Origin: Akkermansia muciniphila
Lineage (GTDB): Bacteria; Verrucomicrobiota; Verrucomicrobiia; Verrucomicrobiales; DEV007
Direction of reading: 5' to 3'
Length of the DNA stretch: 59,648 nucleotides
NCBI GenBank assembly: GCA_945883495.1
Contig: CAMCXS010000032.1
Location: 1 to 59,648, forward strand
Positions 12,494 to 16,818 of the stretch are shown in pieces. Positions within the stretch are counted from its first letter, which is position 1. Every line of letters starts with the position of its first letter. Made by a program: the position numbers and the translations under genes. The notes beneath the pieces were generated by a model, which was not told where the DNA came from, did no database searches, and saw only the letters and a list, made by a program, of their open reading frames with translations.

Positions 12494-13735
12494 TCATTTC
12501 CGCATCCCGACACCCGGAGACGGCTTCCGTTTGGATCCGGCCGCATCCTTGGTCTCGTGCTCTTTTCCGTGAAACAAGCCACGGATGCCGGTGCGGGACT
12601 TCTCTGGCGCAGGCACGGTAGCGGGAGTAGGTGCTGAGGGCGGTGGATTTTGCCCACGCGCTACGGCCACCGGATTCTCATCGCGCCGCACGAAACGCCG
12701 GAGCAGCCAATGCCGTTGCAGCGCCTCGGCGGCAATTTCGTATTCCCGGGCCGTCTCCTGAAGCGTGTCGGCCACCTCACCGTAACTCTGGATGGCATCG
12801 TCCGCCTGATCCACTGTGGCCGGTAGCGTGCCCGCCGCCTTCGTCAGCGCCAGTGCGGCTTCGTTGGCAGACTTCGAGGCGCGGGAGACATTGTCCAAGG
12901 TCTGCTTGATCTGCTGCTGCGCTTCCTGGTCGTTTAGCAGAATGCCGGCTGCGCCCTCCCCTTTCTCAATCTGCGTCATGATCGAAGCAAACGAGCTCGA
13001 TGCTTCATTGAACTTGGCCAATGCCTCGCGGACTTCCTTGCCCGTCTCCTCGTCCCGCAACAAAACGCCGGCCACGCTTTCTCCCTTCTTCACTTCATCC
13101 AGCAGTTCACGAATTCCAGCGATGGCGACTTGGAAATCTTTCTGCGGGTTGTTGAGAGTTTCCGCCAGAATTTCGATCTGCCGCGACGTCTTTTCGAGCT
13201 GCTTGATCGCCGGAACCATGGCGTCGTTCAGCTCGGAAACCATATCGGTCATCTCCTTCTGGCCACCACCGGATGCGTCGGCCAACGGCAAAACAGTCAG
13301 GTCCGGAGCCGGAGTGTCCCCCCGGCTTACTTCAATGTAAGTAGCCCCCAATCCCCCGAGCCCCGTCTTCAAAGACGCCTTCGATTCTTCGCCAACAAAC
13401 ACGGTGTAATCCCCGCGCAGCTCCAACACGGCCACGAGTTGCAATCGGGTCGGGTCCATGTCGCGCTTCACCGGAGGCTTCCCCGTGCGTTTGTCCCGCA
13501 GTTCCACGGAGCGCACCGATCCGGCCCGGGCGCCCAGGATGCGCACTTCAGCACCCGGTCGAATCCCGAACGTGCCGGTCTCTGGAAGCACGACATCATA
13601 GAGCCGCTTGCCCTCAAACCAGCCTTGCAGGTGACCACTCACAAAGATCAGGCCCGTTAGCAGGATGGCCACCGTCAACGCAAACGCCCCGGCGATCTCG
13701 TTGACGTGACGAAACTTGAACGGTTTGGCGGGCAT
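12494..13735 (-). CDS. mlaD: MlaD/MCE-domain substrate-binding protein
   Basis: A 413-residue inner-membrane-anchored periplasmic protein. One N-terminal membrane helix (about residues 12-33) is followed by a single MCE domain (about 38-135) with features such as YDVVLPETGTFGIRPGAEVR and GLGGLGATYIEV. Residues about 140-330 form a long helical coiled coil, and the tail (about 345-413) is Pro-, Lys- and Arg-rich. In Mla systems this subunit forms a hexameric ring that carries phospholipids between membranes. It is the third gene of the permease, ATPase-like and MCE set, 33 nt after the ATPase-like gene. It is convergent with the receiver-kinase hybrid, only 16 nt apart. Confidence 0.9.
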   Translation of the reverse strand: MPAKPFKFRHVNEIAGAFALTVAILLTGLIFVSGHLQGWFEGKRLYDVVLPETGTFGIRPGAEVRILGARAGSVRSVELRDKRTGKPPVKRDMDPTRLQLVAVLELRGDYTVFVGEESKASLKTGLGGLGATYIEVSRGDTPAPDLTVLPLADASGGGQKEMTDMVSELNDAMVPAIKQLEKTSRQIEILAETLNNPQKDFQVAIAGIRELLDEVKKGESVAGVLLRDEETGKEVREALAKFNEASSSFASIMTQIEKGEGAAGILLNDQEAQQQIKQTLDNVSRASKSANEAALALTKAAGTLPATVDQADDAIQSYGEVADTLQETAREYEIAAEALQRHWLLRRFVRRDENPVAVARGQNPPPSAPTPATVPAPEKSRTGIRGLFHGKEHETKDAAGSKRKPSPGVGMRK

Positions 13736-13768: not shown

Positions 13769-14452
13769 TTAGAGGCGGCGGCCCACCGCCTGTGGTACTC
13801 CATCATACCTCAAGGTTTCATCGAGGCCAGCGGCGGCACCAAGATCAATCCAAATCACCGCCGCTCCCGCCCCCCGCGCCCGGCGCACTTGCTCGCGCAA
13901 CCGGCCGGACGATTCCGCCTTCGCGCCCCAGTCGGGAGCCTCCAAGACCAGCAAACGCAGCGGTTCCGGCAAAAAGGCGCGGACCCACTGCGCCCGCATC
14001 AGGATGTCAGAGGAGGTCGCCGCCGGACGCGTGGTGGGCAAGGCGTCCAAGCCGAAGAGATGACAATAGTTTTGCGCACGCTGCCGCAACGCCGCATGAC
14101 TCACTCCCGCCTCGAATTGGCGAGCCAAATAAACGTTCTCCTCGACGTCCAGGTTTTGCAGCCAAGCCGCCCGGCCTGGTGCCGCCACTACTCGCCCGAT
14201 CTGGCGGCGGCAATGCTCAGCCTCCCGAGGGTCCATGGTTTGCCAATCCCCTCCGCCAAACGCCACTCGCCCCCGAGCCGGTGTGTGCAATCCGAGGAAC
14301 AAATCGCCCAAGTGATGCACACTGTCCGCCTCCACGCCCGCAAAGACAATGCACTCTCCCGGCCGCACCTTCAGGTCAAAAGACCCGGCACCGGGATCCA
14401 AACTCGTGGAAAGTCCCTCGCAGGTTAAGACCGTGGCCGTTGCCGCCTTCAT
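13769..14452 (-). CDS. MlaF-position ABC ATPase-like protein lacking catalytic motifs
   Basis: A 227-residue protein between an MlaE permease and an MlaD protein, where MlaF normally sits. The overall ABC layout is recognisable: a beta-rich start, PGECIVF, a P-loop position, a Q-loop position followed by LDVEENVYLARQ, a signature position and a Walker B strand. Every catalytic element has changed. The P-loop position reads GVEADSVH (39-46) with no GKS/T; the Q-loop Gln is absent (VVAAPG, 88-93); the signature LSGG is replaced by TSSD (146-149); Walker B ends LVLEAP rather than LxxDEP (168-173); and the switch His is missing (WIDLG, 201-205). The frame is intact and overlaps mlaE by 4 nt (ATGA), so it looks like a maintained gene, not debris. 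ATP hydrolysis is very unlikely. Confidence 0.82.
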   Translation of the reverse strand: MKAATATVLTCEGLSTSLDPGAGSFDLKVRPGECIVFAGVEADSVHHLGDLFLGLHTPARGRVAFGGGDWQTMDPREAEHCRRQIGRVVAAPGRAAWLQNLDVEENVYLARQFEAGVSHAALRQRAQNYCHLFGLDALPTTRPAATSSDILMRAQWVRAFLPEPLRLLVLEAPDWGAKAESSGRLREQVRRARGAGAAVIWIDLGAAAGLDETLRYDGVPQAVGRRL

Positions 14453-15297
14453 CGAATATAAGTGATCGCCATCACCAACGCCGTGATTCCTACCGCCACG
14501 CTGATGGATCGCAAAATGGCCCGGCTCACCGCCTGGGGCACCTCGGTGGAAGCGCCCCGCACCCGCAGTCCTTCATAACAGCAAATCGCGCCCATCACCA
14601 ATCCGGGCAAAATCGTCTGCACGGAAATTGAGAGCAAATCGACTCCCGTCAGCGAGCCCAAGAGCGACCGGAAAAACGGGCCCGCATCCACCGTGCTGCC
14701 ACTCACCAGAATAAAGCCCATCGCCGCCGCCAGCATCGCCACCACCACGCAGATGAGGCTCAATCCAAAGACGCAGACCGCCAAGCCGATCATCCGGGGG
14801 ACGACCATGTAGTGAAAAATATCGATCCCCTGCGATTCCAGGAGCGCCACCTCTCCAGTCGTCTTCATGGTCGCCATCTCGGTGGTAATCGCCGACGCAC
14901 TGGCTCCAATCACAATAAACGTGGAGAGAGACGGCGCCGCGAGCTGCACCAGCAAGGTCGCCACCATCTTCCCCGAGAGATCCACCTGCCCCGTGTATTC
15001 CAACCAGAGCAGACACTGCAGATAGACCGTCGTCCCCATCAATGCCGCCACCACCGTCGTGAACGGGATCGCTTCCACACCAGCAAAGAGGATTTGCTTG
15101 GCCAGCCGGTCCCGCACCGGAAACACCCAAGTCCCCGGGCGCACCGCCATCGACAACGCCACGCAAAGCATCGTCGAGAGATAGATCACCGCCCGGAAGA
15201 AATCTAAAATCCTCCCGCCAAAACGGTGTAACCAAGTGAGCAGCGGCATCGAATCCCGAAACCGTTCGCTCCAGAGACGGCGTTTTTCAACCGTCAA
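14449..15297 (-). CDS. mlaE: MlaE-family ABC permease
   Basis: About 282 residues with five to six membrane helices typical of the MlaE/DUF140 family: an interfacial N-terminal helix (FGGRILDFFRAVIYLSTMLC), then motifs such as FTTVVAALMGTTVYLQCLLW and the conserved GASASAITTEMATMKTTGEV near the middle, which forms the lipid-binding cavity region. In Mla systems two copies form the membrane channel for phospholipids. The frame opens with TTG at 15297 behind an AGAGG-like site; an ATG at 15249 is an alternative. It begins 15 nt after the nuoN stop, so it may be read through from the complex I operon, and it overlaps the ATPase-like gene by 4 nt. Confidence 0.92.
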   Translation of the reverse strand: MTVEKRRLWSERFRDSMPLLTWLHRFGGRILDFFRAVIYLSTMLCVALSMAVRPGTWVFPVRDRLAKQILFAGVEAIPFTTVVAALMGTTVYLQCLLWLEYTGQVDLSGKMVATLLVQLAAPSLSTFIVIGASASAITTEMATMKTTGEVALLESQGIDIFHYMVVPRMIGLAVCVFGLSLICVVVAMLAAAMGFILVSGSTVDAGPFFRSLLGSLTGVDLLSISVQTILPGLVMGAICCYEGLRVRGASTEVPQAVSRAILRSISVAVGITALVMAITYIR

Positions 15298-15312
15298 CCC
15301 TAGTCCTCTGAA

Positions 15313-16818
15313 TCAACGACTCTCTACGGCGGCCACTTTGGCCTTGGGGGCCAGATTGAAGAGCGGCTGCGGGGCGACGCCGAAGTAGAAGACTGCGATC
15401 ACCAATCCAGTCAGGACCACCCGCATCACGGGGCTGACCTCGATCTTGCTGGCACTCGCCTCCACCGGAGCCTGCATGTAGGCAGAGCGGAGCACTTTAA
15501 AGTAATAGTAAAAGCCGGCAGCCCCAGAAATGACCGCCACTCCGAGAAGGAACCAAGCGTGCGCCTTCACCGCAAACCAGAACACGAAAGCCTTGGAAAT
15601 AAACCCGGCGGTCAACGGCACCCCGGCCAAACTGGCCATCGATACCAACACCACAAAAGCGAGGAATGGAGAACGCTGATGCAACCCCTGGAACGAGGCC
15701 AACTCCTCGCCACCAGTCTGCACCCGCACCAAAGTCACCGCCGCAAAACTGAGGGTGGCCATGAGCAAGTAGCTACCCAAACCAAAAGCGACGACGTGAG
15801 CCGCGCCAACCGAGCCCGCCGCCATCGGCATCAATGGGGCACAAGCAATAGCTAAGAGCAGGAACCCCGCCTGGGACACTCCGGAGTAGGCCAAGAGCCG
15901 CTTGAAATTCGTTTGCGAAATCGCCGCCAAACTGCCGAACAGGACGGTCGCCCCGGCGAGAATCATGACAATCTGAGTCACCTGCCGGCTCAGGTCCGCC
16001 ATCTGCTCCCCAGGTTGCAGGAACGGAGCCAACACGCGGAGAAGAACAATGAAGCCAGCCGCCTTCGAACCAGTCGCCAGATAGGCTGTCACCGGAGTGG
16101 GCGCCCCTTGATAGACATCCGGAATCCAGACGCTGAACGGGAAGGCTCCGACTTTAAAGCCAATCGCCACCAAGAGCAGAACCAAGCCGAACAACGCGGC
16201 AGTCCCGTTCACTTCGCCGGAGGCCAAGCGTTGAGTGATCACTTCGAGGCTCGTAGATCCCGTGGCTCCGAAAATCCAGGTGATCCCATACACCATGAAG
16301 CCAGTGGAAAGCGCCCCGAGGACCAAATACTTCACGCCGGCTTCCAAGGAGCCTACGTTGCGGCGCAGAAACGCCACCATCACATAGAGGGAAATCGTCA
16401 CCAACTCGATCGAAACGAAAATCGTGGTCAGATCAATCGCCGAAGCCGCCCACATCACCCCGGCGCAAGTAAACAGCGGAAGCACGAAAAACTCACCGGC
16501 ACCATACTTCGGCGCCGTGTAACTCTTCACCACGCCTACGTATTCCAGGCCCAACAGCATGAAGAACATTGTGCCCAGCAATGCAAGCCCCTTGTAAAAC
16601 CCGGCGAAACTTCCGGGAGCATAGGTATAAAACTCCCAAAATTGCCCCTCTCCACCTTTGGCGGAAAAATTCAGGACGAAAACGCCCAACAGGCCGATGA
16701 GAGCGATCCAGCCAATCCAACGCTTGTCAGGCCCTGGACGGAACGCATCCGCGAGCAGAAGCGCCAACCCGAGGACAACCAGGGAGATTTCCAAATAGTA
16801 GGCGGGAACGAGCGGCAT
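15313..16818 (-). CDS. nuoN: NADH-quinone oxidoreductase subunit N
   Basis: A 501-residue polytopic membrane protein of the Mrp antiporter-like family, the proton-pumping subunit nearest the quinone side. About 14 helices are visible. Conserved elements include the lysine-bearing helix around FKVGAFPFSVWIPDVYQGAP and the central KRLLAYSGVSQAGF segment, which carry residues of the hydrophilic proton path. Length is near that of the E. coli protein. It is last in the nuo series, 17 nt after nuoM. Confidence 0.97.
   Translation of the reverse strand: MPLVPAYYLEISLVVLGLALLLADAFRPGPDKRWIGWIALIGLLGVFVLNFSAKGGEGQFWEFYTYAPGSFAGFYKGLALLGTMFFMLLGLEYVGVVKSYTAPKYGAGEFFVLPLFTCAGVMWAASAIDLTTIFVSIELVTISLYVMVAFLRRNVGSLEAGVKYLVLGALSTGFMVYGITWIFGATGSTSLEVITQRLASGEVNGTAALFGLVLLLVAIGFKVGAFPFSVWIPDVYQGAPTPVTAYLATGSKAAGFIVLLRVLAPFLQPGEQMADLSRQVTQIVMILAGATVLFGSLAAISQTNFKRLLAYSGVSQAGFLLLAIACAPLMPMAAGSVGAAHVVAFGLGSYLLMATLSFAAVTLVRVQTGGEELASFQGLHQRSPFLAFVVLVSMASLAGVPLTAGFISKAFVFWFAVKAHAWFLLGVAVISGAAGFYYYFKVLRSAYMQAPVEASASKIEVSPVMRVVLTGLVIAVFYFGVAPQPLFNLAPKAKVAAVESR

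Follow-up and report, generated by a model that had tools for sequence, protein, structure and literature searches.

The window, a stretch of 59,648 nt from a genome deposited as Akkermansia muciniphila, carries on its minus strand a compact three-gene cassette that encodes an MlaE-family permease (MlaE2), an ABC-type subunit that we call pseudo-MlaF (pNBD), and an MCE protein (MlaD2). Coordinates are collected in Table 1. A preliminary description of this DNA had placed an intact frame, overlapping mlaE by 4 nt, between an intact MlaE permease and an MlaD protein, and this arrangement stood. Both flanking proteins scored above the Pfam cut-offs of their families (131.2 bits vs. a cut-off of 22.5 for MlaE2 and PF02405; 30.6 bits vs. 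25.1 for MlaD2 and PF02470). The pNBD frame, flanked by mlaE2 and mlaD2, is open from an ATG start, and that start shares the tetranucleotide ATGA with the TGA stop of mlaE2, an overlap that likely couples the translation of the two genes. Approximately 190 residues of MlaD2 beyond the MCE domain were modeled as helix with low confidence (pLDDT 46.8), and the full MlaD2 model was too poor for use.

Table 1. Features of the MlaE–MCE cassette in the window
Feature	Position	Strand	Basis
Pseudo-MlaF (pNBD), predicted ABC NBD fold, nucleotide motifs all gone, 227 aa	13769..14452	-	ORF, alignments, predicted fold
mlaE2, 282-aa permease of the MlaE family, degenerate-NBD lineage, listed with a TTG start	14449..15297	-	PF02405, E = 5.3e-38
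mlaD2, 413-aa MCE protein with a single MCE domain and an extended C-terminal region that is probably helical	12494..13735	-	PF02470, E = 4.2e-7
ATGA, mlaE2 TGA stop and pNBD ATG start, 4-nt overlap	14449..14452	-	Sequence
Walker A position of pNBD, GVEADSVHH, residues 39-47	14312..14338	-	Alignment
WLQNLDVEEN of pNBD, residues 97-106, its best conserved part, holds Trp97	14135..14164	-	Alignment
QWVRA of pNBD, residues 155-159, holds Arg158	13976..13990	-	Alignment
Coupling-helix segment of mlaE2, ~residues 140-158	14824..14880	-	Alignment and contacts given in the accessible part of PMC7784689
nuoN-like gene (named by eye), ends ~15 nt before mlaE2	15313..16818	-	Context only

A nuoN-like gene lies ~15–25 nt ahead of the cassette on the same strand in all three members of the genus (15297–15313 in the window, and L124 and L125), so that the cassette is probably co-transcribed with complex I genes in this genus. 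The linkage was absent from seven other loci of the family, namely those with the upstream side listed. A conserved wider neighborhood was ruled out: The family loci differ in their upstream genes, the downstream sides having been seen only in passing.

As a single sequence, pNBD matched the Pfam ABC_tran family with E = 0.012 and 16.6 bits, which is under the 25-bit gathering cut-off. A profile built from 11 pNBD orthologues matched ABC NBDs in the PDB (best E = 1.3e-11), and the AlphaFold model of pNBD (pLDDT 86.7, pTM 0.87) has the two-subdomain fold of an ABC NBD. The matches that Foldseek listed for this model were ABC NBDs, and VIA gave Z up to 23.2. Compared with MlaF, the model gave a Z of 21.3 (rmsd 3.3, 215 aligned residues) for 6xgz_A and a Z of 20.6 for 6xbd_I. 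Membership of pNBD in the ABC family, weak by the single sequence, is firm by the profile and the predicted fold, and the non-ABC structure that the preliminary description had named as a refutation did not appear. LolD, MacB, and others scored equal to or slightly above MlaF, and the fold alone thus does not identify pNBD as an MlaF. Its place does agree with the way MlaF is recognized by synteny, as an ABC-fold gene between mlaE and mlaD.

Five losses had been read from the sequence at the outset (Walker A, the Q-loop Gln, LSGG, the catalytic Glu, and the switch His), and by alignment all are real. The Walker A position has diverged (Table 1), the Q-loop Gln position is Ala90, the LSGG position reads TSSD, and the H-loop position reads WIDLG, with no His. 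Walker B has become LVLEAP, with Glu171 in place of its Asp and Ala172 in place of the catalytic Glu. None of the nucleotide features of an ABC ATPase is present. By this motif comparison, pNBD would lack the residues for MlaF-type ATP hydrolysis and is almost surely dead as an ATPase; the best reading is that canonical ATP binding and hydrolysis have both been lost. In Escherichia coli, the Walker A and B mutants K47A and E170Q of MlaF are reported, in the accessible part of the source, to give no complementation (PMC7367683), which argues that motif-less NBDs could not drive an Mla-like cycle. The window genome also carries an ordinary mlaE–mlaF–mlaD operon with all ATPase motifs, located on another contig (L183; contig C15 of G000, ~28–30 kb).

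The cassette was found in 11 of the 74 genomes of the window's family, patchily distributed over four genera. Walker A, the Q-loop Gln, LSGG, and the H-loop His are missing from all 11 family pNBDs, which excludes chance or a slip in a single genome. Remnants of Walker B survive in two of them, as the Asp in G057 (L072) and as a Glu at the catalytic column in G009 (L069). The pNBD gene is under purifying selection. Over three pairs within the genus, dN/dS was 0.17–0.19 for pNBD, 0.06–0.09 for MlaE2, and 0.09–0.11 for MlaD2, and six pairs outside the class gave 0.14–0.33 for pNBD. The preliminary description had proposed looking among orthologues for a shared motif loss and a low dN/dS, both of which we observed, and had held that orthologues with intact motifs would speak against it; no mlaE-x-mlaD orthologue of the lineage that we read has the full motif set. 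A pseudogene or an assembly artifact was ruled out by the open frames in separate genomes, the dN/dS values, and the conservation beyond the class. We also noted a locus in G058 (L075, 5082–5797) in which mlaE2 is broken into two frames, with no NBD or mlaD match adjoining. This locus is a relic of the cassette, and taken together with the patchy presence, it indicates that the cassette is dispensable.

We assembled a class-wide set of MlaE loci from a search of 384 genomes with MlaE2 (E ≤ 1e-30; 66 genomes had a match, and every listed place was read), from searches of the family, and from hand-picked canonical copies. The canonical loci of the family are a partial sample, consisting of the best 30 of the family matches and further picked ones. 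Loci were grouped by their MlaE, according to whether it has Gly at the site that contacts the NBD through the coupling helix, and then by the Walker A of the neighboring NBD. The MlaE rows were made unique on their last 100 residues, leaving 120 (50 without Gly and 70 with it). Three MlaE pieces of <200 aa were left out, namely the two halves of the broken G058 gene and a contig-edge gene from G017; the NBD of G017 was retained in the family NBD alignment.

All six NBD features were present in 46 of the 47 loci that had an MlaE without Gly and an NBD in view, the remaining NBD (L059) being cut by a contig end. We refer to those with Walker A and SGG as canonical; the term is circular with respect to the motifs, and 46 of 47 is therefore the fair figure. 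Three loci on the canonical side had no NBD in view (L057, L064, and L091). Two of these, L057 (G070) and L064 (G044), encode an MlaE of the canonical type, and no linked NBD was found within their 3.6 kb; their MlaF may be elsewhere in the genome.

The MlaE with Gly are accompanied by NBDs in graded states of loss. In type i (46 NBDs in the class set), Walker A is present in 46 by definition and the Walker B Asp in 46; the Q-loop Gln remains in three, SGG in none, the catalytic Glu in three (Asn in 33), and the H-loop His in one. Type i NBDs may still bind ATP. Type ii is the window's kind, with 16 NBDs in the class set: Walker A is absent by definition, the Q-loop Gln is present in one, SGG in none, the Walker B Asp in four, the catalytic Glu in two, and the H-loop His in none. 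Type iii comprises seven loci in which an MlaD match follows 59–75 nt after mlaE, with no NBD between. One further locus of the degenerate lineage (L179) has an NBD one gene away that is type i by eye, and it was left unclassed in these counts.

Two type iii loci (L116 and L118) have small lipoproteins, barrel-like outer-membrane proteins, and an AI-2E-type permease in their vicinity (all named by eye), possibly an envelope-stress cluster. At several type i and type ii loci (L120, L121, L122, L239, and L112), mlaD is followed by a gene whose product resembles a lipoprotein and in some cases a TPR protein (by eye); this product could be an outer-membrane partner.

A profile of the type i NBDs matched canonical MlaF at 5e-59, and the two are firmly related. 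The family pNBD profile was nearest to pNBDs from outside the class (3e-53), followed by type i (8e-20), canonical MlaF (1e-17), and ten other ABC proteins (1.5e-16). As the last three are nearly equal, the case that pNBD descends from MlaF is carried mainly by synteny and by the type i NBDs.

We then searched 387 genomes of the phylum with a profile of the degenerate-lineage MlaE. This recovered 49 places at ≥200 bits, of which 48 are outside the window's class, in 18 families; the window scored 170 bits and the remainder ≤155. An NBD was in view at 46 of the 49 places. Forty-five of these NBDs lack Walker A GK[ST] and SGG (type ii, outside the class), and the sole type i among them, from G079, is inside the class and repeats a locus of the class set. 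SGG was found in none of the 46, and single residues survive here and there: a Glu in the catalytic column in four, the Walker B Asp in three, the Gln in one, and TH at the H-loop in one. At the three places with no NBD in view, G704 reaches a contig end, and G515 and G525 have no adjacent NBD. In the latter two (L234 and L233, respectively), mlaE2 is solitary, with neither NBD nor MlaD adjoining. As a control, 20 lower-scoring MlaE of the same search, taken from the top of the lower-scoring matches, had intact NBDs in all 20 cases.

In a tree of the 120 MlaE rows, computed with the coupling column removed, a single branch separates the 50 canonical from the 70 degenerate rows (SH-aLRT 97). 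A second tree of 88 rows gave the same split with a support of 100/98 (22 vs. 66 rows), placed types ii and iii in a main clade (100/99), and held type iii together as one clade (100/99). This tree took 22 of the 46 canonical, 16 of the 46 type i, all 16 type ii, and the seven type iii rows of the class set, along with half of the rows from outside the class, drawn at random; the program warned of a bootstrap that was still unsettled and of long branches in four rows. Of the 16 type ii rows of the class set, four fell outside the main clade, two inside type i, one beside type i, and one basally. The simplest history consistent with these trees and motif counts would start with hydrolysis being lost a single time, after which Walker A disappeared (more than once) and finally the gene. 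Hydrolysis would have gone first, in the ancestor of the lineage; Walker A would have followed, on the branch leading to types ii and iii and again within type i; and last, the NBD gene itself would have been dropped in type iii. Repeated loss within the lineage is possible. A recent loss in a single operon was ruled out by the motif readings of the family and class and by the MlaE trees. The motif loss noted at the start in one operon is thus real, but it is no isolated event: An old MlaE lineage, with graded stages both inside and outside the class, carries it.

Five contacts of the E. coli MlaE coupling helix with MlaF are given in the accessible part of the structural report by Chi et al. 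2020 (E127–R52, Q128–L96, S131–R157, M135–Y108, and R142–E112; PMC7784689). We mapped the contact sites by sequence alignment, which has small gaps in the region after the Q-loop. The 58 type ii NBDs of the joint alignment comprise the 11 of the family, two of the other six of the class, and 45 from outside the class. Gly148 of MlaE2 (14854–14856; numbering counted from the alignment) aligns with E. coli MlaE Glu127. On the NBD side, the site of MlaF R52 is basic (Arg or Lys) in 46 of 46 canonical NBDs, one of 46 type i, and one of 58 type ii; it is Asp in 39 of the 45 type ii NBDs from outside the class and Asp50 in the window's pNBD. Judged by alignment, the MlaE Glu127/MlaF Arg52 contact is lost on both sides in this lineage. 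Other sites were exchanged or kept. At the E112 site, 38 of 46 canonical NBDs have Glu and all 46 type i NBDs have Tyr. Leu occupies the L96 site in each of the 46 canonical NBDs, and Trp does so in 51 of 58 type ii (Trp97 in the window's pNBD). The R157 site is Arg in all 150 aligned NBDs (Arg158 in the window's pNBD).

Conservation across 56 pNBDs, expressed as the mean frequency of the commonest residue, follows the same lines: It reaches 0.84 in NLDVEE and 0.78 in WVRAFL and falls to 0.28 in the former Walker A stretch, vs. 0.455 overall. The residues strongly conserved outside the old motifs are W70, W97, N100, D102, R142, R158, and W201. With the contact residues kept or changed and the Walker A stretch eroded, the docking residues appear to have been retained or remodeled, and the nucleotide site not. 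We had also considered Gly at the coupling site as an exact marker of the lineage. This held in the class set, in which the same site was used for the grouping, and was weakened by the phylum set, where Arg, Gln, or His occupies the site in 11 rows out of 50, two of these 50 being duplicates of other rows; in the canonical rows it is Gln or Arg in eight of 50.

We compared the cassette with known systems. Like E. coli MlaFEDB, it combines in a single gene set an MlaE permease (PF02405), an MCE protein (PF02470), and a subunit of ABC fold; it differs in that its NBD has no nucleotide motifs, its MlaD is long, and none of its three genes is MlaB-like. In the long-MlaD MlaEFD "transenvelope bridge" of Veillonella and most diderms, described as the common form in diderms, the three-gene mlaE–mlaF–mlaD core and the long MlaD are the same as here. 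The accessible part of that work also mentions MlaDE clusters and PVC-group MlaD without a C-terminal barrel; it treats MlaF as an ATPase, speaks of an "uncertainty of MlaF annotations," and describes no motif loss (PMC10665443). True Mla systems have been delimited, in the portion of the source at hand, by an MlaD without a long helical C terminus and by the presence of MlaC and MlaA in the genome (PMC7790496). By contrast, MlaD2 is long, and the window genome (96% complete) had no match to PF05494 or PF04333, the families of MlaC and MlaA, so that "Mla" applies here only loosely. The Mla-type label first given to the operon is right in that this is an MlaE–MCE system, but it is distinct from the Mla pathway of E. 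coli.

Heterodimeric ABC exporters with one degenerate site keep one working site. Their degenerate NBDs, like pNBD, have lost the catalytic Glu and other motifs, as far as the accessible part of the source describes them (PMC7756269). The cassette differs in that the co-encoded pNBD lacks the motifs of both sites, and its dimer would have no working site. To our knowledge, no dead NBD is encoded beside YrbE in mycobacterial Mce1 or Mce4. These systems resemble ours in having MlaE-like permeases (YrbE) that share one ATPase, MceG, rather than having one each, and they differ in that the motifs of MceG are intact and MceG is required, according to the part of the source available (PMC9947336). 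Pqi is described, in the accessible part of another source, as an MCE system without a known ATPase, and PqiABC/LetAB thus shares with the cassette an MCE conduit without its own ATPase; PqiA has a distinct fold whose sole relative is that of LetA, whereas here an ABC-type permease and a dead NBD have been kept (PMC10897342). Among the matches listed in a search of open-access titles and the starts of abstracts, we found no description of an MlaE system with a dead conserved NBD or of a graded series. Lacking both the nucleotide features of an ABC ATPase and the marks of a true Mla system, the cassette was filed as a new variant of MlaE–MCE systems. The preliminary description had anticipated such a variant in a motif-less ATPase of a conserved operon, an idea that the shared loss and the ABC NBD fold support.

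We favor the reading, with a probability of roughly 0.6, that pNBD would be a structural or gating subunit and that the MlaE2–MlaD2 conduit would not be driven by an ATPase of its own. In molecular terms, pNBD, a former MlaF-type NBD, would play a non-catalytic part, docked on the cytoplasmic coupling helix of its own MlaE2 dimer, and MlaE2, pNBD, and the long MlaD2 would together form a lipid conduit anchored in the inner membrane. By binding MlaE2, pNBD would hold or gate it, and lipid would move down its gradient through the channel of MlaE2 and MlaD2 or be driven by an outer-membrane factor or a proton gradient. That this MlaE–MCE lineage moves lipids between membranes is presumed from the families to which its proteins belong. 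The motif losses suggest ATP-independent transport by the degenerate-lineage systems. Passive flow of lipid through MlaE2 and MlaD2 is a tentative proposal, to which we would give somewhat less than even odds. The broader picture is of an old, separate Verrucomicrobiota MlaE–MCE lineage that works without ATP, its ABC-type permease serving as a lipid conduit, either passive or powered in some other way, and its pseudo-ATPase acting as a structural lid that many members have kept and others have dropped; the chances of this picture may fall only a little short of even.

Every site in an NBD dimer combines the Walker motifs of one subunit with the LSGG of its partner, and a mixed MlaF:pNBD dimer would therefore hold no complete site. 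With a pNBD dimer having no site either, this points to pNBD as a structural or gating subunit. It also weighs against the idea that MlaE2 is energized by MlaF from the cell's canonical system, whether as a swapped-in homodimer or paired with pNBD. We consider such borrowing unlikely, even though several observations speak for it. At least two MlaE (Pfam MlaE) were present in 54 of the 56 degenerate-lineage genomes, where a minority of the second copies were read and these had an intact MlaF; a second MlaE match was found in 47 of the 49 phylum-set genomes, and eight of the 20 control MlaE, with their intact NBDs, sit in genomes that also hold a degenerate-lineage MlaE. The MlaE2 of type iii has no NBD gene of its own adjoining, and Mce1 and Mce4 appear to share MceG, as stated in the available part of the source (PMC9947336). 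Borrowing would nevertheless have to work with the MlaE Glu127/MlaF Arg52 contact gone on both sides and with pNBD encoded in a 4-nt overlap on its own mlaE2. It would also have to accommodate G515: Of the two genomes with one MlaE each, G139 is 75% complete, and G515, with 100% completeness, has as its only MlaE one of the degenerate lineage, with no adjacent NBD or MlaD, an argument from one genome. The preliminary description had offered a borrowed ATPase, transport without ATP, or a subunit turned structural; the evidence leans toward the last two over the first.

We think it improbable that pNBD is instead a regulatory subunit that responds to some other ligand or to a protein by opening or closing the MlaE2 conduit. 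Such a role would fit the few residues that are strongly conserved beyond the old motifs, as well as a type i Walker A that could bind ATP as a signal, but type iii loci have no such subunit adjoining. That the operon is a broken paralogue in the course of being lost, as its patchy presence (11 of 74) and the G058 relic might hint, is hardly credible given frames that are open in the cassettes read (G058 aside), dN/dS well below one, the same loss outside the class, and residues that are invariant or nearly so across 56 proteins.

ABC transporters are defined by their ATPase. The lineage described here retains the permease and appears to retain NBD residues for docking, but the NBD that it encodes would have no working site, and living relatives still show intermediate stages. 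This makes it a natural experiment on the roles of an NBD besides hydrolysis. It bears on whether MlaE–MCE conduits can pass lipid without ATP and on how phospholipids move across the periplasm. For surveys that find MlaF by synteny, it means that an MlaE with an adjacent ABC gene does not imply ATP-driven transport. If our reading is true, an ABC transporter lineage would here have shed its engine stepwise, and it would be a candidate ATP-free route for bulk phospholipid to or from the outer membrane.
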